The notes under the pieces were generated by a model, which searched no databases, was not told the origin of the DNA, and saw only the letters and a program-made list of their open reading frames with translations. This document shows positions 5,613-31,934 of a stretch of DNA of 32,762 nucleotides, one piece after another (the stretch's first letter is position 1; each line of letters starts with the position of its first letter). The stretch covers positions 1 through 32,762 of the forward strand of contig CASDVX010000122.1 in NCBI GenBank assembly GCA_949284545.1. The letters run 5' to 3'. Position numbers and translations under genes: made by a program. Source of the DNA: an uncultured Eubacteriales bacterium. GTDB lineage: Bacteria > Bacillota > Clostridia > Oscillospirales > CAJFTT01.

Positions 5613-5730
5613 CTGCAACAGTAAGTATAAGGGCAGAGCCGCCGATTTTACGGACAGCTTGACGCGGACGGCGGCGGAGGTTAAAGCGACGGCGGCAGAA
5701 TGGCGGCCATGGGAAAGGACAGCGGATAAT

Positions 5731-8436
5731 ATGTCAAGTGGCGGCAAAAGCGCATATACGAGGATGACTGCGCTGCTGGTGGCGATATTCATAGTAGTGG
5801 CGGCTGCGGCCGCGGTGATAGGATTGTGCTTCGGCGGCGACTCCGGGGGGAACGAAAGCGAATTTGTAAGTTCAATGGTGCCGGGAGGAGAATCTCTTCC
5901 GCCCGTGGTGTCTGTGGAACAGCCTCAGCCGGGCGAGCTCATACCGGAGGATTACAGAGCCATTTGGCTTTCCGAGGCGGATATAGCTTCATACACTTCC
6001 TCGGACGAGGTGGTGTCTCCGGCAAAGGATACCGGATTTACCGCTGTGATTGCGGATGTGTTCCCGGGGGTTAATACAGACACGCTGTCTGAGCTTTCGG
6101 AGTTTACTCTGGGTAAGGATATGGCGTTCCAGCTAAATTTCACGTATGTGCCTGCGGATACTTCGGACGTCATTGAAATTTTGGAATCCGTATCGACGGT
6201 GGCAGCGGTATTTTTCCCGGGGGACGCGGACAAGGATATCATGGAGGAGCTAAAGGAGCTCATATCCGAAACAGACGGACGAACGGCGTTCGGCATAGTC
6301 TCAGGTACAGAGCCGGAGGAATCTGTTTCACATATCGCCGACTGTGTATGTGTATGTCCGGAGAATGACAGCGCGCCGGCCGTAATGGAGGCGTGGGGGA
6401 GTGCGCTGGCGGGGAGCAATATACCGCTTATTCTGGGTGTGTCTGTGGATCCCGAGAAAGCTGAGAGCGACCCGAGGTATATGGTGGAGCTGCAGAATAT
6501 CGCGAACGCCACGGCCAATTACCGCGGAACAGCGGTGCGCAACGCTGAAAATATGTATACTGACACCACCGGCGCTGTTACTGCGCTTATTTCTCTTCTT
6601 AACGGTGAGAACAAAGATTACGTGGGCGGCGAACTGTCGATAGTAGAACCGGTGGAAACAACCTATGTTACATACGGAAGGGTGTTTACCCTCCGAGGGA
6701 GCGGAAACCCGATATATGAGCTGAAGGTCAATTCCGAGCCTGTGCCGATAACCGACAGCGGAATATTCACATGGTCCTGTGAGCTTGAAGCCGGGGAAAA
6801 CATTATAACCGTAAGCCACATGGGCAAGACCGTCGTGTTTACCGTGGAAAGGCGGATAGACGTGCTCAACAGGGTCAGTCCGCAGGATAAAACGTACGCC
6901 GACGGAGGAGTGGCGATATCTCTCACGGCACGCGCTCTGAGCGGTGCGGAGGTTACGGCGAGCTTTAACGGGGAAAAGATTGTGCTGTCCGAACAGGAAG
7001 ATCCTGAAAACGAAAACGCCAGCGGAGAATATGTGCTTTTTTCGGCGCTTTACACCCTCCCGGAAGGCACGGAAGAGGAACAGGACCTGGGTCGGATAAC
7101 GTTTCGCGGGACAATAGACGGATATACCGAAACAGTCATAGGCGGAAGAGTGTACGTGAATCCCCTTCCAGAACCGGAGCCGGACAGGGACATAGTGGAG
7201 ATCGCCACGATCAAGGTGAACCATTCCGACGGCGAGGACTTCACTAAAACGTATCCGACTATGTATCTTGACGACAATTCGGCGCCTATACAGTACTTTT
7301 TGGCCACCGGCATGAAAGATACCGTTGTCAGGGAAGCGAGCTTTACGGGAGAGGACGGATTGATTGAATACTACGTGCTGTCAGGAGGCGTGATGGTGCA
7401 TAAGTCGGACTGCACGGTGGAGACAACTGAGGAAATAATAAATAACATTTCCTCCGCAGCACTGTCTGAAGAGGGTGGTTATACCGTCCTGCGTTTCAGC
7501 GGAACGGATCCGGTGGCCGTGATACCGTCTCTCCTTCCCGTGGATTTTACAGGCAAGCACCCGTTGGGATATTCGGTGGATTCCTTCGAAGTGCGTACGG
7601 TGGAGCTCCTTTTCACAAATACCGTGGCGGTAAGCGACATAATGGGGTTTGCGAATAACAAGCTGTTTTCCGGGTACGAGTGGGAACGGGTTTCCGACGG
7701 ACAGTATAAGCTTGTGCTCACCCTCAAAAAAACCGGCGGGTTTTACGGAATAAAAACAGAAGTCGACAGCAAGGGCAGAGTGGTAATATCTTTCAAAAAT
7801 CCGGTTTCGCTGGAAAAAGCTGATAACGAATACGGGTATTCTCTGGAAGGCATCACCGTGGTGCTTGATGCGGGACATAACGGCAACTATCCCTACAACC
7901 CCGGAGCAGCGGGATTTTACGAGGGTCTTCACGAAGCCAATCTCAACCTGATCCTGGCTGAGAAAACCAAGGAGAAGCTTGAAGCCCTCGGCGCCGAAGT
8001 GGTGATGACCAGGACGAATAACGCGTCTGACATGACAAGAAGCGAGCGCGTGGCCAAAATACTCGAAAGCGGCGCGGATGTGTGCATAGCCATACATCAT
8101 AACGGGGCCACGAGCTCCAGCGCCTACGGGACCAGCGCGTATTATTTCTATCCGTTTGCCAAGGATTTTTCAGAGTGCGTTTACGACCGAATGGTGGAAA
8201 TGTACCAAGAAAACATATACACGTCGGGAAGCAAAAAAGACGGCTGCGCAAAAGGATGCAGATACTATCCGTACTATATGACAAGGATACAGGAGTTTCC
8301 GTGTATACTTGTGGAGACCGGCTACATAACAAATTTGGAGGAATACGAATACCTGATACGGGACGACATACAGGAGCTTGTGGCAGAGGCGTTCACTCAG
8401 GGAATAGTGGACTATCTGGCTTCTCAGAGTAACTGA
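5731..8436 (+). CDS. Membrane-anchored N-acetylmuramoyl-L-alanine amidase, large multidomain
   Basis: The 901-residue protein starts at ATG 5731 (AAAGGA eleven bases upstream); the frame is open 24 codons further but without a better start. Residues 13-36 form one membrane anchor. Residues 69-300 begin with DYRAIWLSEADI and look like a glycosidase-like barrel of the GHL10 sort. Residues 306-375 are a beta-rich, Ig-like module, followed by further beta segments and an AMIN-like region. The C-terminal 200 residues are an Amidase_3 zinc hydrolase that cuts the peptide stem from peptidoglycan: ligands His716 (LDAGHNG), Glu735 (LHEAN) and His789 (IAIHH), with catalytic Glu862 (LVETGY). All are intact. 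The length is several times that of a minimal amidase. It is monocistronic between a promoter and a terminator. In spore formers such enzymes act in division, engulfment or cortex work, but which is not shown here. Confidence 0.88.
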   Translation: MSSGGKSAYTRMTALLVAIFIVVAAAAAVIGLCFGGDSGGNESEFVSSMVPGGESLPPVVSVEQPQPGELIPEDYRAIWLSEADIASYTSSDEVVSPAKDTGFTAVIADVFPGVNTDTLSELSEFTLGKDMAFQLNFTYVPADTSDVIEILESVSTVAAVFFPGDADKDIMEELKELISETDGRTAFGIVSGTEPEESVSHIADCVCVCPENDSAPAVMEAWGSALAGSNIPLILGVSVDPEKAESDPRYMVELQNIANATANYRGTAVRNAENMYTDTTGAVTALISLLNGENKDYVGGELSIVEPVETTYVTYGRVFTLRGSGNPIYELKVNSEPVPITDSGIFTWSCELEAGENIITVSHMGKTVVFTVERRIDVLNRVSPQDKTYADGGVAISLTARALSGAEVTASFNGEKIVLSEQEDPENENASGEYVLFSALYTLPEGTEEEQDLGRITFRGTIDGYTETVIGGRVYVNPLPEPEPDRDIVEIATIKVNHSDGEDFTKTYPTMYLDDNSAPIQYFLATGMKDTVVREASFTGEDGLIEYYVLSGGVMVHKSDCTVETTEEIINNISSAALSEEGGYTVLRFSGTDPVAVIPSLLPVDFTGKHPLGYSVDSFEVRTVELLFTNTVAVSDIMGFANNKLFSGYEWERVSDGQYKLVLTLKKTGGFYGIKTEVDSKGRVVISFKNPVSLEKADNEYGYSLEGITVVLDAGHNGNYPYNPGAAGFYEGLHEANLNLILAEKTKEKLEALGAEVVMTRTNNASDMTRSERVAKILESGADVCIAIHHNGATSSSAYGTSAYYFYPFAKDFSECVYDRMVEMYQENIYTSGSKKDGCAKGCRYYPYYMTRIQEFPCILVETGYITNLEEYEYLIRDDIQELVAEAFTQGIVDYLASQSN

Positions 8437-8465
8437 GAAGCCGCCGCGGGGGCAAGGAATAAAAG

Positions 8466-8505
8466 AAAAAGAACTGCACCGTTGCCGGACGGAGCAGTTC
8501 TTTTT
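8466..8505. terminator. Bidirectional terminator between amidase and small minus-strand gene
   Basis: Twelve-base arms (8466-8477 and 8494-8505) pair perfectly, with a further inner CCGT/ACGG pairing. The arm ends give T5 on the plus strand and T5 on the minus strand, so it can end both the amidase transcript and the convergent small gene at 8523-8612. Confidence 0.88.
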
Positions 8506-8522
8506 CTCAGTTTATGAGGTTG

Positions 8523-8612
8523 TTAATCGGAGAAAGTTGTGAGGAGCAGTATGATAACGATGATAAGGCTCATCGTGCACTTGCTGCATCCGCTGAAGAG
8601 ACTGCATGCCAT
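8523..8612 (-). CDS. Small Cys-containing membrane peptide, 29 residues
   Basis: The minus-strand ORF encodes 29 residues: a polar head with three cysteines (ACSLFSGCSKC) and one hydrophobic helix (MSLIIVIILLLTTF). AAAGGAGG lies eight bases before the ATG, as good as any ribosome binding site in the window. The gene ends just before a bidirectional terminator and has a possible sigma-K promoter upstream, so it is a complete transcription unit. Small Cys-rich or single-helix peptides of this size are common and poorly studied in Clostridia, several of them linked to sporulation; I do not recognise a named family. The plus-strand reading of the same DNA has no comparable start signals. Function is unknown. 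Confidence 0.62.
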   Translation of the reverse strand: MACSLFSGCSKCTMSLIIVIILLLTTFSD

Positions 8613-8645
8613 GCTCACGCCCTCCTTTCTGAAGCCGCGTCTGTA

Positions 8646-8672
8646 TATACTATGCTGAATTTTGAATATGGT
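8646..8672 (-). promoter_or_regulatory. Possible sigma-K-type promoter of the small membrane peptide
   Basis: On the minus strand AC (8672-8671) is followed after 16 bases by CATAGTATA (8654-8646), which fits the sporulation sigma-K pattern AC, spacer, CATANNNTA. A start near 8637 would leave a leader of about 25 bases. I find no good sigma-A promoter for this gene. Short motifs such as this occur by chance, so the call is tentative. Confidence 0.3.
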
Positions 8673-8732
8673 GAATTTCTTGCGGCGCTTAAAATATCCC
8701 GCCTTTGTCAAACATAAGATATAAAAGACCTT

Positions 8733-8751
8733 CACATTGCCGGACAATGTG
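8733..8751 (+). promoter_or_regulatory. Inverted repeat in the clpC leader
   Basis: CACATTG and CAATGTG (8733-8739 and 8745-8751) flank CCGGA, ending four bases before the AAGGAAGG ribosome binding site of the ClpC-type gene. It could be a repressor operator or an RNA hairpin. It does not match the CtsR box (direct repeats of GGTCAAA) or CIRCE. No convincing sigma-A promoter is visible for this gene. Confidence 0.45.
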
Positions 8752-8765
8752 CGAAAGGAAGGATT

Positions 8766-11198
8766 ATGGTGAACACGGGATTTACGTTAAGAGCGCAGTC
8801 CGCGTTGAATCTTGCGATGAAATGCGCAAGGGAGATGGGGCACACATACGTCGGCAGCGAACACCTGCTCATGGGGCTTGTTTTGGAAAAGAACTCCGTG
8901 GCGTATCAGATGTTAGCGGCGTCGGACGTTGATGCGGCGGAGCTGCGCGAACGGATAAAGGAGTACACCGGAGTGGGTGAAAAGACCAGAGTGTGTGCGG
9001 CAGAGCTCACGCCTCGGGCAAAAAAAATCATTGAAAACGCATGTTCCGCAGCCCATATTGCCGGCAGTCAGCTGGTGGGTACGGAGCACCTTCTCACCGC
9101 GCTGCTCAAGGAGGAAGAGTGCACCGCCGTGAGGATACTGGCGGAAACCGGACACAGCCCAAGGGAGATGTGTCAGTCGTTCCAGCTGCTGCTCTCTGAA
9201 GAGCCCGAGGCTCCGAGACGCATGGGACGCGCCCAGCAGCGCAGTCAGGGAGTAAAATCCGCGGAAGGAAAACAGCTCAGCCTGTACGGCAGGGACATAA
9301 CGGCTGATGCCAGAGCGGGCAAACTCGATCCGGTGATCGGCAGGGACAGAGAAATAGAGAGGATGATATGCATCCTCACAAGGCGCGGGAAAAACAACCC
9401 GTGCCTTATAGGCGAGCCGGGCGTGGGCAAAACCGCGGTCGTGGAAGGCCTTGCCCAGCGCATAGCCGGAGGAGACGTTGATGAAAGCCTGCTTAATAAA
9501 AAATTGATTTCGGTGGACCTGACCGGGATAGTGGCAGGAACTAAATACCGCGGCGATTTTGAGGAACGCATCAAAGCTATACTGGAAGAAGCCAAGAACG
9601 ACCCGACGGTGATATTATTCATAGACGAGCTGCACACGGTGATAGGGGCCGGAGCGGCTGAGGGTGCGGTGGACGCGGCGGGGATAATAAAGCCTCCGCT
9701 TGCCAGGGGAGAAATACGCCTTATCGGAGCCACCACACTTTCCGAATACCGTAAGCATATAGAGAAAGATGCGGCTTTAGAGAGAAGATTTCAGCCCATC
9801 ATGGTGGAGGAGCCATCTCCCGAGGAGACTGTAACAATACTCCGGGGACTCAGAAGCAGGTACGAGGAGCACCACGGCGTGACGATACCGGATGAAACAC
9901 TCACGGCCGCGGTGGAAATGTCAGTGAGATATATAGGGGACAGATTTCTCCCGGATAAGGCCATAGATCTTATGGATGAGGCAGCAGCAAAGGTGCGAAG
10001 ACGGTTTGCCGCATGCCGGACGGCATGCAGAGAGGACGCCAAGACAATAAGTCGTATCTCAAACCTCAAAACCGAGGCAGTATTGGCGGGAAGATTTGAT
10101 GAAGCGGCGATGCTGCTGAGCAGAGAACGGGATCTTTTGGGAGTGGGAGAAGGTTTTTTTGATTTTTCAGCAGAGGAGAGAACACTTGTTCCGGAGGTAA
10201 CCCCGGCGGATATCGCCGATGTGCTTTCCATGTCCACCGGCATACCTCTGTCGAGACTCGAAACTGGAGACGCGTCTAAACTGCTGAACCTGGAAAGCCA
10301 ACTTCACGAAAAGGTTGTGGGGCAGAACGAGGCCGTGCGCGCCGTGGCGGAGGCGGTAAGACGGAGCAGAATGGGCCTTTCGGATCCGGAGCGTCCAAGC
10401 GGCTCGTTTCTTTTCTGCGGGCCGTCGGGAGTGGGAAAAACGGAATTGGCTAATGCTCTTGCACAGGCGCTGTTCGGGAGTGAATCCTCCATGATAAGGG
10501 TGGATATGAGCGAATATATGGAAAAGCACTCGGTATCAAAGCTGATAGGCGCTCCTCCGGGATACGTGGGCTTTGACGAGGGAGGACAGCTCACAGAACG
10601 TGTAAGACAGAGACCGTACAGCGTTGTGCTGTTTGACGAAATTGAGAAAGCGCACGCCGACGTGCTGAATATACTTCTGCAGGTCCTTGAGGACGGCAAG
10701 CTCACCGACTCTCAGGGCCGAACCGTGAATTTCAGAAACTGCATAATAATAATGACCACCAACGTGGGTGCGGACCGGGTAAAGGACAGGAATATAGGCT
10801 TTACGTCGGGGGAAACCGAACCGGGCGGGAAAATGAAAAAAATCATGCTTGAGGAGATGAAGAAGACCTTCAGACCGGAGTTCCTGAACAGAATTGACGA
10901 TATTGTAATATTCATGCCGCTGTCTTCCTGCGAACTGAAAACTATTGCTTGCGGAATACTGTCGGAGTTTTCGATACGTGCCCATAAGAGCGGAATAGAG
11001 GTCGAATTCGAAGAATCCGCCGCGGAAACGGTGGCGGCAAGCTGCGACGGGAAAGACGGCGCGCGTCCTCTCAGAAGGTTTGTTATCAGAGAGATAGAGC
11101 ATCCTCTTGCAGAAGCCTTGCTTTCCGGCAGGATAGTTCGTGAAAAGCCCGTAAAGGCTGTGGGAGAGAACGGGAAAATAATATTTTTGCAGGAATAA
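8766..11198 (+). CDS. clpC: ClpC-type AAA+ unfoldase, ATP-dependent Clp protease subunit
   Basis: The 810-residue protein has the class I Clp layout: two N-terminal Clp repeats ([32 protein letters not shown]) in residues 1-150, a first AAA+ domain with Walker A GEPGVGKT at 216-223 and Walker B ILFIDELH, a middle domain with a UVR-like stretch ([20 protein letters not shown]), and a second AAA+ domain with GPSGVGKT at 552-559 and [11 protein letters not shown]. An IGF loop before the [10 protein letters not shown] motif is the usual ClpP contact, so it should feed ClpP. ClpC unfolds misfolded or tagged proteins, often with McsB or MecA adaptors. The common neighbours ctsR, mcsA and mcsB are absent, so this could be a second, specialised ClpC paralogue. 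The start ATG follows AAAGGAAGG closely. Confidence 0.93.
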
Positions 11199-27168: not shown

Positions 27169-27205
27169 TACAGAACAGGTATTTGAATTGATTTGGAGGG
27201 TGGAT

Positions 27206-28741
27206 ATGCAGGAAAAGATACTCGTGCTGGATTTCGGAGGACAATATAACCAGCTCATTGCCCGCCGTGTGCGGGATAACAACGTTTACGCCGAGATTCT
27301 GCCGTATACGACGGACATTGCCGCAATTGCAGCGGGAAATTACAAGGGAATAATACTTACCGGAGGGCCGAACTCCGTTTTTGACCCTCTTTCCCCGCAC
27401 TACTCTGCGGACCTGCTGAAAATGGGCATACCCGTGCTGGGCATATGCTACGGCTGTCAGCTCATGGCGTGGATGACCGGCGGAACGGTTGAAACAGCGC
27501 GTCAGTCGGAATACGGCGGCATAAATATGCGTGTCCGCAAGACAAATTCCACGCTGTTTGAGGGTGTTCCGGAAGAAAGCGTGGTATGGATGAGCCATAC
27601 CGACTACATTTCGTCCCCGCCTGAAGGGTTTGAGGTCACGGCGAGCACCGATGCGTGCCCGACAGCGGCGATGGAGAACAGCCGGCTCAAGCTCTACGCG
27701 GTTCAGTTTCATCCGGAAGTGACCCACAGCGAGTACGGTGGGAAGGTGCTTAAAAACTTCCTTTACGGTATTTGCGGCTGCACCGGCGAATGGCGCATGG
27801 AAGATTTTATAGATAAGTCGGTCACACAGCTCAGGGAGAAGATAGGCAGCAGGAAAGTCATACTCGGGCTGTCGGGAGGGGTGGATTCCTCCGTGGCGGC
27901 AGCTCTCATCAGCCGGGCTGTAGGAAAGCAGCTCACGTGTATCTTTGTGGATCACGGACTTATGCGCAAGGGCGAGGCCGACAGCGTTGAGGAAACGTTT
28001 ACCACCGGCTTTGATTTGAATTTTGTCAGAGTCAACTGTAAAGATCAGTTCCTTCACAGCCTTGCGGGAGTTACCGACCCGGAAGAAAAACGAAAGATAA
28101 TCGGGAGGGAGTTTTACCGTATCTTCTGGGACCAGATACGCGGCGAAGGTGACAGCGGATTCTTTGCCCAAGGGACAATTTATCCTGATTGCATTGAGTC
28201 CGGCAAAGGCAGCGCAGACACCATCAAAACGCATCACAACAGGGTGAACATCCCGGACGACGTTGTATTTGAAGGGGTAATAGAGCCGCTGTCGGAACTT
28301 TTCAAGGACGAAGTGAGGAAAGTCGGAGAGATGCTGGGACTGCCCACAGAACTTATCTGGCGTCAGCCGTTCCCCGGGCCGGGGCTCGGCGTGCGGATAA
28401 TCGGAGAGGTGACCGAGGAAAAAATTAACGTCCTGCAGGACGCTGATTGGGTTCTGCGTGACGAGATGGGGAAAAACGGATACGAAAAGCAGCTGTCGCA
28501 GTTCTTCTGTGTACTTCCCGATGTAAGAACGGTGGGGGTAATGGGGGATCACCGGACGTATGAACATCTGATAGCCATACGTGCCGTGACTACCGACGAC
28601 TTTATGACTGCTCAGTGGGCGAAGATACCGTATGATATCCTTGCAAGAGTCAGCAGCCGTATTACCAACGAAGTAAAGCAGGTCAACCGGGTGGTGTATG
28701 ACATTACCACAAAACCGCCGGCAACGGTGGAATGGCTGTAA
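27206..28741 (+). CDS. guaA: GMP synthase, glutamine-hydrolysing, complete
   Basis: The 511-residue enzyme contains the full set: a class I glutaminase with catalytic Cys81 (GICYGC), His169 and Glu171 (FHPEVTH), an ATP-pyrophosphatase with the P-loop SGGVDSS at 223-229, and the C-terminal dimerisation domain (RQPFPGPGLGVRIIGE, ending PPATVEWL). It turns XMP into GMP with glutamine as ammonia donor. ATG 27206 follows GGAGGG at six bases. It is followed 24 bases later by a second GMP synthase gene that lacks the glutaminase, so the two are probably cotranscribed. Confidence 0.96.
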   Translation: MQEKILVLDFGGQYNQLIARRVRDNNVYAEILPYTTDIAAIAAGNYKGIILTGGPNSVFDPLSPHYSADLLKMGIPVLGICYGCQLMAWMTGGTVETARQSEYGGINMRVRKTNSTLFEGVPEESVVWMSHTDYISSPPEGFEVTASTDACPTAAMENSRLKLYAVQFHPEVTHSEYGGKVLKNFLYGICGCTGEWRMEDFIDKSVTQLREKIGSRKVILGLSGGVDSSVAAALISRAVGKQLTCIFVDHGLMRKGEADSVEETFTTGFDLNFVRVNCKDQFLHSLAGVTDPEEKRKIIGREFYRIFWDQIRGEGDSGFFAQGTIYPDCIESGKGSADTIKTHHNRVNIPDDVVFEGVIEPLSELFKDEVRKVGEMLGLPTELIWRQPFPGPGLGVRIIGEVTEEKINVLQDADWVLRDEMGKNGYEKQLSQFFCVLPDVRTVGVMGDHRTYEHLIAIRAVTTDDFMTAQWAKIPYDILARVSSRITNEVKQVNRVVYDITTKPPATVEWL

Positions 28742-28765
28742 ACTAATTTGAACAGGAGGAGTAAT

Positions 28766-29746
28766 ATGCAAACCGACAAACGACCCGAAACCATGCAGCG
28801 CATCAATACTGCAGAACTCGCCCAAGATTTCATTCAGACTCAGATACAGGAAATACGCGCCAGAGTACAGGACAAAAAGGTGCTGCTCGCTTTGTCGGGC
28901 GGGGTGGATTCTTCAGTGGTTGCCGCGCTTCTGATTAAGGCCATAGGAAAGCAGCTGGTGTGCGTTCACGTAAACCACGGCCTCATGCGCAAGGGCGAAA
29001 GCGAACAGGTGATCGATGTTTTCGGCAAAAGTCTTGACGCCAACCTCATTTACGTAGACGCGACCGACCGCTTTCTCAGTTTGCTTGCAGGAGTGAGTGA
29101 TCCGGAGAAAAAGCGCAAGATCATAGGCGGAGAATTTATAAAGGTTTTTGCCGAAGAAGCGGCTAAGCTGGAGGGGATATCGTTCCTTGCCCAGGGAACC
29201 ATTTATCCGGATATTCTCGAATCCGACGGCGTAAAGGCGCACCACAATGTCGGCGGTCTCCCGGAGGATTTGAATTTTGAGCTGGTGGAGCCGATAAAGT
29301 TGCTGTTCAAAGACGAGGTGCGCGTAGTCGGGGAAGCGCTGGGACTGCCGCACGGTATGGTATACCGTCAGCCGTTTCCGGGTCCGGGTCTGGGAGTACG
29401 CTGCCTTGGCGCCATAACCAGGGACAGACTTGAGGCACTGCGCGAGGCGGACGCCATCCTCCGGGAGGAATTTGACAAAAACGGGCTTGCAGGTAAGGTA
29501 TGGCAATACTTTATTGTCGTGCCCGACATGAAGAGTACGGGCGTGAAAGACGGCAAACGGTATGAAGGCTGGCCGGCCATAATTCGAGCGGTTAACACCA
29601 CCGATGCGATGACTGCTACCATTGAGGAGATCCCTTATTCTCTTTTGCACCGGATCACCGACAGGATCACAGGCGAGGTGCCCGGAATAAATCGAGTACT
29701 GTTGGATCTTACCCCAAAACCGGTCGGAACAATAGAGTGGGAGTGA
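28766..29746 (+). CDS. Second GMP synthase, ATP-pyrophosphatase and dimerisation domains only
   Basis: The 326-residue protein starts directly in the synthetase half: P-loop SGGVDSS at 44-50, then LMRKGESEQV, AQGTIYPDILESDGVKAHHN, RQPFPGPGLGVRCLGA and the canonical ending KPVGTIEWE. It has no glutaminase domain, like the archaeal GuaAb subunit. ATG 28766 follows AGGAGGAG at ideal distance, so this is a real gene with its own start, not a remnant. It is only moderately similar to the adjacent complete copy, so it is not a recent duplicate. It may use free ammonia, borrow a glutaminase, or act on another nucleotide. Its 3' end lies at the edge of the mobile element. Confidence 0.9.
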   Translation: MQTDKRPETMQRINTAELAQDFIQTQIQEIRARVQDKKVLLALSGGVDSSVVAALLIKAIGKQLVCVHVNHGLMRKGESEQVIDVFGKSLDANLIYVDATDRFLSLLAGVSDPEKKRKIIGGEFIKVFAEEAAKLEGISFLAQGTIYPDILESDGVKAHHNVGGLPEDLNFELVEPIKLLFKDEVRVVGEALGLPHGMVYRQPFPGPGLGVRCLGAITRDRLEALREADAILREEFDKNGLAGKVWQYFIVVPDMKSTGVKDGKRYEGWPAIIRAVNTTDAMTATIEEIPYSLLHRITDRITGEVPGINRVLLDLTPKPVGTIEWE

Positions 29747-29899: not shown

Positions 29900-30373
29900 T
29901 TATGCATTATCCGTTTTTGTGTTTATCGCTTTTTCCTGCGGATATGTATAACGCCAATGGTCGTATTCCTCTTTAGTGATTTCTCCGTTTTTGAGTTTCT
30001 CGGCTTGCTCCTGCCAAGCGGAGAACATCTCAAACATAGATATGTAATTTGTTCCCATTCCCTTATCAAGGCGGATACAGAGTTCCCCGTCAAGTTTGTC
30101 AATGCGCAGACCGTACAAGTCCTCCATAGCAAACAGCGTGTGCATAAGCCCGTTGTAGCTGTCAATGTCGGGAATAGTCAATGCGCTTGCAGATACGCCG
30201 AACACTTCTGCAAGTTTATTTGTTAAATCGGCTTTCGGAGTTCTCGAGCCTGATTCATACTGAGCCATACGAATATCAGCAGTTTTTTCAGGAAAACCGA
30301 CCTGAATACCGAGATATTTTTGAGTCATTCCTCTTAAATTTCTGAAAAAACGAATTCTCTCGCCGATTGCCAT
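29900..30373 (-). CDS. XRE-family helix-turn-helix regulator of the element
   Basis: The 157-residue protein has an N-terminal helix-turn-helix of the Cro/CI type in residues 1-65 (GERIRFFRNLRGMTQKYLGIQVGF, then YESGSRTPKADLTNKLAEVFGVS). The C-terminal part has no known domain but contains a KNGEITKEEYDHWR motif often seen in regulators of these elements. ATG 30373 lies ten bases after AAAGGAG; a GTG three codons earlier is too close. Its promoter overlaps a paired operator, so it probably represses itself and the divergent excisionase-integrase promoter. It keeps the element quiet in the integrated state. Confidence 0.85.
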   Translation of the reverse strand: MAIGERIRFFRNLRGMTQKYLGIQVGFPEKTADIRMAQYESGSRTPKADLTNKLAEVFGVSASALTIPDIDSYNGLMHTLFAMEDLYGLRIDKLDGELCIRLDKGMGTNYISMFEMFSAWQEQAEKLKNGEITKEEYDHWRYTYPQEKAINTKTDNA

Positions 30374-30404
30374 AGAGATCACGCTCCTTTTTTGTACCGC
30401 ATTT

Positions 30405-30434
30405 AGTATAGCATATAAATTTAATATATGTCAA
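30405..30434 (-). promoter_or_regulatory. Promoter of the XRE regulator
   Basis: On the minus strand TTGACA (30434-30429) and TATACT (30410-30405) are 18 bases apart, giving a start near 30398. The spacer holds one copy of the AT-rich operator repeat, fitting autorepression. Confidence 0.85.
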
Positions 30435-30461
30435 TATAACCATAGCAAATAAATTTAATAT
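30415..30461. repeat. Two operator-like direct repeats between divergent promoters
   Basis: ATAAATTTAATAT is present at 30415-30427 and again at 30449-30461, 34 bases apart (about three helical turns). Each copy contains the palindrome TAAATTTA. One lies inside the XRE promoter and the other between the two promoters, which fits binding by a dimeric XRE repressor. Confidence 0.7.
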
Positions 30462-30476
30462 TTTCTTGAAAACCAC

Positions 30477-30505
30477 TTGACTTAACGGAAAACAGTTAGT
30501 ATAAT
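30477..30505 (+). promoter_or_regulatory. Promoter of excisionase and integrase genes
   Basis: TTGACT (30477-30482) and a perfect TATAAT (30500-30505) are 17 bases apart. Transcription should begin near 30512, leaving about 147 bases of leader. Confidence 0.88.
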
Positions 30506-30511
30506 ATAGAT

Positions 30512-30658
30512 GCAGGCTTAAACAAATAAGCTATTGTTTGAGTGCGGTGCCTGTCGCACATCACAGTAATGGGGTGTCCGCCCGGGAGAATCGGATGGCG
30601 GTCAGAAAGGATTCCGACACTAAAGAAATTTAATCTATCCAATTGAAAGGAGATTTAT
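30512..30658 (+). promoter_or_regulatory. Structured leader of the excisionase-integrase transcript
   Basis: The leader is GC-richer than its surroundings and full of complementary segments: GCTTA/TAAGC around 30516-30531 competing with AAACAA/TTGTTT, GTGCG (30542-30546) with CGCAC (30555-30559), GTGTC (30574-30578) with GACAC (30616-30620), CCGCC (30578-30582) with GGCGG (30597-30601), and GAATC (30588-30592) with GATTC (30610-30614). Some of these exclude each other. I match it to no known riboswitch; it may be an attenuator or a binding site for an RNA. Confidence 0.45.
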
Positions 30659-30880
30659 ATGGCAAGCACAACCTTTATGCGAGTGGAAGAAGTCGCAGAA
30701 GAATTAGGCGTATCGAAATCATATGCCTATAAAATTGTACAGAAGTTAAATGCCGAATTGAAATCGCAGGGATTTCTTACGATTTCAGGGCGAGTAAATA
30801 AGCAATATTTTTTAGAGCGAATCTGTTATGGCTCAAAAAAAGAAAGAGAGGGATTAAATAATGGCGGTTTACAAAGATGA
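30659..30880 (+). CDS. Excisionase-like helix-turn-helix protein
   Basis: The 73-residue protein opens with RVEEVAEELGVSKSYAYKIVQKLNAEL, a winged-helix DNA-binding pattern seen in excisionase-like proteins of Firmicutes integrative elements, and ends with a basic tail. It would direct the integrase toward excision. AAAGGAGA lies six bases before the ATG. It overlaps the integrase start by 20 bases, so the two are translated from one message. Confidence 0.8.
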   Translation: MASTTFMRVEEVAEELGVSKSYAYKIVQKLNAELKSQGFLTISGRVNKQYFLERICYGSKKEREGLNNGGLQR

Positions 30881-31934
30881 AAAGACAAACACTTGGCGTG
30901 TGCTTTACCGCTACACAGATTGGAACGGAGAGCGAAAACAAACGCAGAAGCGTGGATTTAAAACCAAGCGTGAAGCACAGGCTTGGGAGCGTGAGCAGCT
31001 TAACAAGTTGGGCGGTGACTTGGATATGAGTTTCAAGAGCTTTGTGGAACATTACACCGCAGATATGCAGAGCCGCATTAAGGAAAACACTTGGGCAACG
31101 AAGGAGCATATTATTCAGACAAAACTCATTCCCTATTTCGGGAAGCTGAAGATGTGCAACATCACCGCACAGCAAATTATCACTTGGCAAAACGAACTCA
31201 TCAATCATAAAGACGAGAACGGAAAGCAGTATTCGCCTGTATATCTGAAAACCATTCACAATCAGCTATCAGCGATATTCAATCACGCTGTCAGGTATTA
31301 CAACCTAAAAGAAAATCCCTGCAAGAAGTCAGGCAGTATGGGTAAAAAGAAAAACCGTGAAATGCTCTTTTGGACGAAAGAAGAATATCTGAAATTTGCA
31401 GATGTGATGATGGACAAACCCATTTCCTTTTACGCCTTTGAAATGCTCTACTGGTGCGGTATTCGTGAGGGCGAATTGTTGGCTCTTACGCCTGCGGATT
31501 TTGATTTTGAAAAGCGGACGGTGACAATCAACAAATCGTTTCAGCACCTAAATGGCAGGGATATTATCACCACGCCGAAAACAGAAAAGAGCAACCGCAC
31601 CATTCAGCTACCAAAATTCCTCTGCGATGAAATACAGGACTATTTGAAAATGCTTTATGATGTGGGGCTGGAGGACAGAATGTTTCCTGTTACCAAAAGC
31701 TATCTGCACCGAGAAATGGATAGAGGCTCAAAAGTTTCAGGTGTAAAACGAATTAGAATACACGACATTCGACACAGCCATGTGAGTCACTTAATTGATT
31801 TAGGCTTTTCGGCAACTGCTATTGCCGATCGTGTGGGACACGAGAGTATAGATATAACCTATAACTACGCTCATCTATTTCCGTCAAAGCAGGCTGAAAT
31901 GGCGGACAAGTTAGATATGGAAAGAGGAGAATAA
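30861..31934 (+). CDS. int: Tyrosine recombinase, site-specific integrase
   Basis: The 357-residue protein has an N-terminal arm-binding domain (WRVLYRYTDWNGERKQTQKRGF), a SAM-like core-binding domain (residues 60-160) and a catalytic domain with Arg202 (GIREGELLAL), His301 and Arg304 (HDIRH), His327 (VGHES) and the nucleophile Tyr336 (NYAHLF). All catalytic residues are present, so it should be active. It resembles integrases of Tn916/Tn1549-type and phage elements of Clostridia. It probably recombines at the 3' end of the GMP synthase gene on its left. Confidence 0.95.
   Translation: MAVYKDEKTNTWRVLYRYTDWNGERKQTQKRGFKTKREAQAWEREQLNKLGGDLDMSFKSFVEHYTADMQSRIKENTWATKEHIIQTKLIPYFGKLKMCNITAQQIITWQNELINHKDENGKQYSPVYLKTIHNQLSAIFNHAVRYYNLKENPCKKSGSMGKKKNREMLFWTKEEYLKFADVMMDKPISFYAFEMLYWCGIREGELLALTPADFDFEKRTVTINKSFQHLNGRDIITTPKTEKSNRTIQLPKFLCDEIQDYLKMLYDVGLEDRMFPVTKSYLHREMDRGSKVSGVKRIRIHDIRHSHVSHLIDLGFSATAIADRVGHESIDITYNYAHLFPSKQAEMADKLDMERGE

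Follow-up and report, generated by a model that had tools for sequence, protein, structure and literature searches.

To our knowledge, it is poorly known how the outer forespore membrane and the coat are tied together in those Clostridia which lack most of the Bacillus coat proteins. In Bacillus spore assembly, SpoVM and CmpA are short mother-cell peptides acting at the forespore surface, SpoVM as a surface-lying amphipathic helix, and we do not know of either being described as Cys-rich. The peptide reported here, which is encoded in a stretch of 32,762 nt (the window, as we call this whole stretch of DNA), resembles them in being short and, as proposed below, mother-cell-made, but differs in having no family match. 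CYSTM, the eukaryotic cysteine-rich transmembrane module, combines a helix with Cys residues clustered at one of its ends, and this combination is shared with a wider set of tiny bacterial peptides (look-alikes) described below. CYSTM is, however, eukaryotic, none of the nine stray Pfam matches obtained with 38 look-alikes is to it, and in the window peptide the helix is not followed by any Cys. The name "chorion class high-cysteine" is in use for Clostridial peptides, and a literature search with this name returned a silkworm paper only.

YjcZ of Bacillus is small and membrane-associated (PMC11796252), and in B. subtilis yjcZ is placed in the sigma-K regulon (PMC517825). The tiny size, the membrane association and the sigma-K regulon are points of likeness to the predicted properties of the window peptide. 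The difference is that the window peptide has no match at all in Pfam or NCBIfam, libraries which contain YjcZ models and were searched without a positive control, and that no YjcZ model appears among the stray matches of the 38 look-alikes. Among known proteins, YjcZ comes closest as a working analogue, and no sequence relation to it can be detected.

Searches of Pfam, NCBIfam (up to E 10) and PHROGs gave no family for the window peptide and none for its homologue in G001, the sole other genome of the same family that was compared, which belongs to a different genus. When the 38 look-alike representatives were compared with Pfam and NCBIfam, nothing better than E 0.04 was obtained, and these were stray matches only. 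No title or abstract within the literature searched describes such peptides in Clostridia; this search lay outside most subscription journals, and absence is not proven by it.

Peptide gene and its signals in the window

The features concerned are the following.

5659-8436, plus strand: convergent neighbour, a large protein with a C-terminal N-acetylmuramoyl-L-alanine amidase domain (CwlD-like, below cut-off)
8508-8463, both strands: hairpin with T-runs on both sides, likely a terminator common to the peptide gene and the convergent amidase-domain gene
8612-8526 plus stop codon 8525-8523, minus strand: peptide ORF of 29 codons, MACSLFSGCSKCTMSLIIVIILLLTTFSD
8628-8621, minus strand: Shine-Dalgarno (SD) sequence AAAGGAGG, exactly 8 nt before the ATG; SD and spacing identical in G001
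8654-8646, minus strand: -10-like element CATAGTATA, of mother-cell sigma E/K type
8672-8671, minus strand: -35-like AC, 16 nt before the -10 element (whole motif match 8646-8672); AC-N16-CATA also in G001
8766-11198, plus strand: divergent neighbour, a Clp ATPase (best NCBIfam models ClpB and ClpA, all below cut-off)

The preliminary description had pointed to a 29-residue Cys/membrane peptide with its own promoter motif, an SD at 8 nt and a terminator, and every element lies where it had been placed, the interval 8523-8672 running exactly from the stop codon to the AC. Three Cys are present in residues 1-12 of MACSLFSGCSKCTMSLIIVIILLLTTFSD, arranged as a Cys-x5-Cys-x2-Cys head, together with a single hydrophobic segment and one Lys. 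The hairpin folds with -27.4 kcal/mol (z -6.7) on the minus strand and -27.7 kcal/mol (z -5.5) on the plus strand, which, with T-runs on both sides, agrees with the shared bidirectional terminator that had been proposed; it is absent from the output of a simple terminator scan.

The combination AAAGGAGG-N8-ATG is seen twice in the window as against 0.02 expected from shuffles. The promoter motif AC-N16-CATANNNTR has three matches as against 1.12 expected, and three were reached in 13 of 100 shuffles; alone, it is not rare in the window, and its placement is the unusual part. The window has 44 starts with a strong SD, and the motif, with AC at either N16 or N17, stands at promoter distance from just two of them, both in-frame starts of the peptide ORF. 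The peptide gene thus carries, as read from the sequence, signals for independent transcription and translation. Such an ORF is too short for ordinary annotation, the preliminary description having remarked that most annotation would miss the unit, and reading promoter, SD and terminator together can reveal genes of this kind.

Length and a single hydrophobic segment would also fit a small hydrophobic toxin of a type I toxin-antitoxin pair, an assignment that we regard as very improbable in view of the sporulation-type promoter motif, the lack of a Pfam, NCBIfam or PHROGs match and a promoter scan (consensus only) of 8061-9030, in which no plus-strand sigma-70-like site for an antisense RNA was found.

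Homologue in a second genus and selection on the ORF

The homologue in G001, MACGLFGGCDKCTMSLIIVIILLLVMD, shows 81-84% identity to the window peptide (two alignments). Its gene has an SD with the same 8-nt spacer, AC-N16-CATATGATG equally far from the start, and a strong hairpin of its own directly 3' of the stop codon. Over 24 core codons, the two genes differ by 7 synonymous and 4 non-synonymous changes (dS 0.67, dN 0.075, dN/dS about 0.11; Fisher p about 0.0015 with rounded site counts). Absence of the ORF or its SD from close relatives, or a synonymous/non-synonymous ratio near one, had been named in advance as observations that would count against the gene; both ORF and SD are kept in this one same-family relative, and dN/dS lies well below one. 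Upstream of the gene, identity is 16/22 in the first 22 bases, 9/22 in each of the next two segments and 6-8/22 farther out.

These data bear on the view that the ORF arose by chance inside a non-coding RNA or spacer, with which its very short length and the commonness of the promoter motif alone would be compatible. The low dN/dS, the conserved SD and spacing, and flanks which beyond the promoter are so little alike speak against this view, and we give it hardly any credence. Because the gene recurs in a second genus and dN/dS is so low, it is more than a chance ORF; on this comparative evidence the 29-codon ORF is a real gene that is shared by two genera and has been subject to purifying selection.

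When 98 genomes were searched for similarity to the window peptide, G001 was the only convincing match, and a search of plasmids (tblastn) gave none. A two-row profile matched 70 of 394 genomes of the order at E 0.3, nearly all at noise level. One weak match, L003 in G002, was read by eye and rejected; on the other strand there is an apparent leucine-rich-repeat gene. SD-preceded small ORFs from the other weak-match loci were put into the decoy set used below, and only that of G077, a canonical look-alike, stood out.

Wider set of tiny Cys peptides and the position beside ctsR and clpC

A search of the 394 order genomes with the peptide of G009 gave matches at E 0.05 in 92, a few of which lie inside long frames and are doubtful. 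We inspected 70 match places, leaving out a second group of weaker places, some of them inside long frames. A script took a single peptide of 27-52 residues from each of 69 places, and at L145 in G051 the peptide runs off the contig and was excluded by the filter, its visible part being a look-alike. The common architecture consists of a Gly/Phe/Asn head, Cys, Trp, an Ile-rich helix and a Cys cluster, and the Trp is nearly invariant (at least 90%) in the look-alike alignment A2. Several matches occur in some genomes (three in G009, two in G022). G001 has, besides the homologue of the window peptide, a second and canonical peptide with Trp and Cys tail, MACLRNIFGDDCWIWILLIIIVLLGCGDDNCDCGCGCGCN (L255 1623, minus strand, contig 46), whose divergent neighbour is an mltG-like gene. 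In G051 the copy (L145) has the same arrangement with a gene that reads as mltG-like. When 398 genomes of the phylum were searched with a profile at E 0.01, 20 were matched, of which 5 belong to this order and 15 lie outside its class according to listed kinship; some of these matches sit inside long frames and are doubtful. Tandem similar tiny peptides were seen at two loci outside the order (L202 1501-1810; L198 1486 and 1803), some with upstream CATA-type motifs.

The window peptide has in common with this set a length within 27-52 residues, a Gly/Phe-containing Cys head, one Ile/Leu helix, an SD and, in many members, AC-N16/17-CATANNNTR; Trp before the helix and Cys after it are found only in the look-alikes. 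With 29 residues, a single helix and a Cys-containing LFSGCSKC head before it, the window peptide follows the general plan, but at the helix start it reads CTMSLIIV with no Trp, and instead of a Cys cluster it ends in LLLTTFSD (LLLVMD in G001). A profile of 62 look-alikes searched against 736 small ORFs gave E 0.014 for the window peptide and E 0.011 for that of G001, as against E 0.68 for the next true decoy. Seven sequences, look-alikes or alternative starts, came immediately before these two, and all others of the 734 small ORFs ranked below them; the seven sequences and the alternative start of the window gene were set aside from the 734 decoys before the best true decoy was named. In a profile-profile comparison (hhalign) of the window peptide with the look-alikes, the probability was 23.5% and E 9e-4, and the look-alike alignment searched over the whole of the window's genome gave nothing, even at E 10. 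The head LF[SG]GC-x2-C[ST] is common to the window peptide and MCNNLFGGCGSCSWII of the G077 look-alike (peptide MCNNLFGGCGSCSWIIILILILFCCC), which is matched by the window peptide itself at E 0.5. Because Trp and the Cys tail, two defining features, are missing from it, we have not filed the window peptide as a member of the set.

Its genomic address was also compared, which the preliminary description, silent on both ctsR/clpC and the wider set, had not brought in. The peptide gene of G001 is divergent from ctsR-mcsA-mcsB-clpC (names by reading of the ORFs, CtsR also by Pfam), and that of the window is divergent from the Clp ATPase gene itself, with no ctsR match in the window's genome, G000. 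By analogy with the operon beside the G001 peptide, we call the Clp ATPase at 8766-11198 ClpC-type. CtsR is present in 64 of 117 order genomes, and the small ORFs around ctsR were inspected at all 64 loci, some of which are cut by contig ends. A peptide divergent from ctsR was found at four of these (G001, G009, G022 and G042, belonging to four different families) and no such peptide at the other 60. The further ctsR-side peptides are MSGFFGGFNNSCLWIILIIIVLCCCCGGERGFGGCGGCDD in G009, MCNNGFGGNCTWVLILILLLTCCCGNNDNGCGCGCN in G042 and MDNCCWIIILILLFCGCGNNGCMNSRSSGCC in G022, and all four copies have a sigma-K-type motif, a strong SD and an immediate hairpin. In the 13 genomes having both a ctsR match and a peptide match, G009 and G042 are the only ones in which the two adjoin. 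Five loci were examined for a strict CtsR heptad repeat and none has one, and we therefore make no claim of CtsR control.

Adjacency to ctsR or clpC in several families might suggest a vegetative heat-shock or proteolysis peptide controlled together with clpC/ctsR, for example a ClpCP adaptor or substrate. We consider this improbable, since the gene is divergent with a sigma-K-like promoter and a hairpin of its own, the great majority of the inspected ctsR loci showed no such peptide, ctsR and peptide matches so seldom adjoin where both occur, and the heptad repeat was not found at the five loci examined for it.

As to descent, the window peptide is probably a derived relative of the look-alikes that has kept the ctsR-side address, judging from head, address and promoter pattern. 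The second, canonical copy elsewhere in G001 means that the window gene could be a separate lineage. A late mother-cell membrane peptide unrelated by descent to the Trp/Cys-tail peptides, with head, address and promoter alike through convergence or co-location, would be consistent with that separate copy beside the mltG-like gene, with the weak profile scores and with the missing Trp and Cys tail; the same divergent ctsR-side position as in G009, G022 and G042, the same promoter pattern and the head shared with the G077 look-alike make it rather unlikely in our judgement.

Promoter type, host sporulation genes and a possible role

Among 68 distinct upstream regions, including those of the window and G001, CATANNNTR occurs at -28 to -60 in 41, as against 5/68 in the next zone of equal width, and the reversed motif occurs in 0/68 in that zone. 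Without the window and G001, it is present at -28 to -60 in 39 of 66 look-alike upstream regions; AC precedes CATA by 16 or 17 nt in 33 of those 39 (33/66 overall), as against 0-6/39 at control spacers, and the base counts of the look-alike -35 region spell G-T/G-A-A-C-C/A. Of the 27 of 66 regions lacking CATANNNTR, 22 have a looser form when the test is made very permissive. AC-N16/17-CATANNNTR just upstream of the SD is thus present in the window and G001 and common, not universal, in the look-alikes; the sigma-K-like AC-16 motif pointed out at the beginning was found, has the same placement in G001 and stands before half of the look-alike genes.

The sigma-K motif takes the form CATANNNTA. 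Upstream of spoIVA in the window's genome we read by eye TCATATT-N14-CATAAGAAT, which is of the ATA type, while the peptide gene has the AC type; the distinction between AC and ATA promoter types is that of PMC3789822. The peptide promoter is therefore sigma-K type by sequence, and we regard AC-N16-CATANNNTR before the gene as a candidate sigma-K-type promoter.

That the host is a spore former, as had been assumed, agrees with SigG and YlmC/YmxH in the window and SigE and SpoIVA elsewhere in its genome. Among the sigma-factor matches in G000, models identify SigE and SigG, and others were read as SigF- and RpoD-like. Sigma-K is above cut-off in G001, and no gene for it was found in the assembly of G000 (93.6% complete, 159 contigs); the explanation is either a gap in the assembly at this gene or use of sigma-E by the species at the peptide promoter. 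The unfound gene is the main point against the sigma-K reading. The guess of a spore-coat or mother-cell membrane peptide in the preliminary description is partly supported and has survived the sequence tests, with motif and sporulation genes in its favour and the unfound sigma-K gene against it. G000 gives neither ctsR nor sigma-K matches despite having the Clp ATPase, SigE, SigG and SpoIVA, which may reflect true absence of the two genes or gaps in the assembly.

The association of peptide matches with SpoIVA is weak (87 of 351 SpoIVA-positive genomes as against 5 of 43 negative ones; Fisher p 0.035), with 20 of the negatives listed directly and 23 inferred by absence from the results, and with two of the five matches in negative genomes (G052, G068) lying inside long frames. 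This co-occurrence is weak evidence because 351 of the 394 genomes have SpoIVA.

Taking these lines together, we think it probable that the real gene described here encodes a single-pass thiol peptide made late in the mother cell under sigma-K or sigma-E, and that it is a derived relative of the look-alikes. Transcription late in the mother cell would be by sigma-K, or by sigma-E if the species truly has no sigma-K, as motif and context suggest. A single short helix would anchor the peptide in a membrane derived from the mother cell, the outer forespore membrane being the most likely one. The Cys-x5-Cys-x2-Cys head would stay at the membrane face; its thiols may engage in disulfide formation, metal binding or docking to coat proteins, and in this way the peptide, present in many copies, could tie the membrane to the coat. 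The window lineage would have kept address, promoter and head and lost the Trp and the Cys tail.

A broader proposal, which we put forward tentatively as a possibility, is that the Cys single-helix peptides form a widespread, undescribed, sigma-K-type group of Clostridia, produced in large amounts at a late mother-cell stage and linking the outer forespore membrane to the coat by disulfides, with one ancestral copy divergent from ctsR-clpC and with the Cys tail dropped in the window lineage. A set matched in 92 of 394 order genomes, often with a sigma-K-type promoter, offers concrete candidates for a membrane-coat link.

VWA-domain-like proteins starting MGVTSSNK (L087 in G000) and MGITNSNK (L086 in G001) are both preceded by CATANNATG and an SD, and these genes are possibly further mother-cell genes, judging from that shared upstream pattern. 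In the window, two consecutive GMP-synthase-like ORFs, the second shorter, were read by eye at 27188-28741 and 28748-29746. Positions 29900-31934 contain, also by eye, an HTH-like ORF on the minus strand and excisionase-like and integrase-like ORFs, and this region near the window's end is a probable integrative element.
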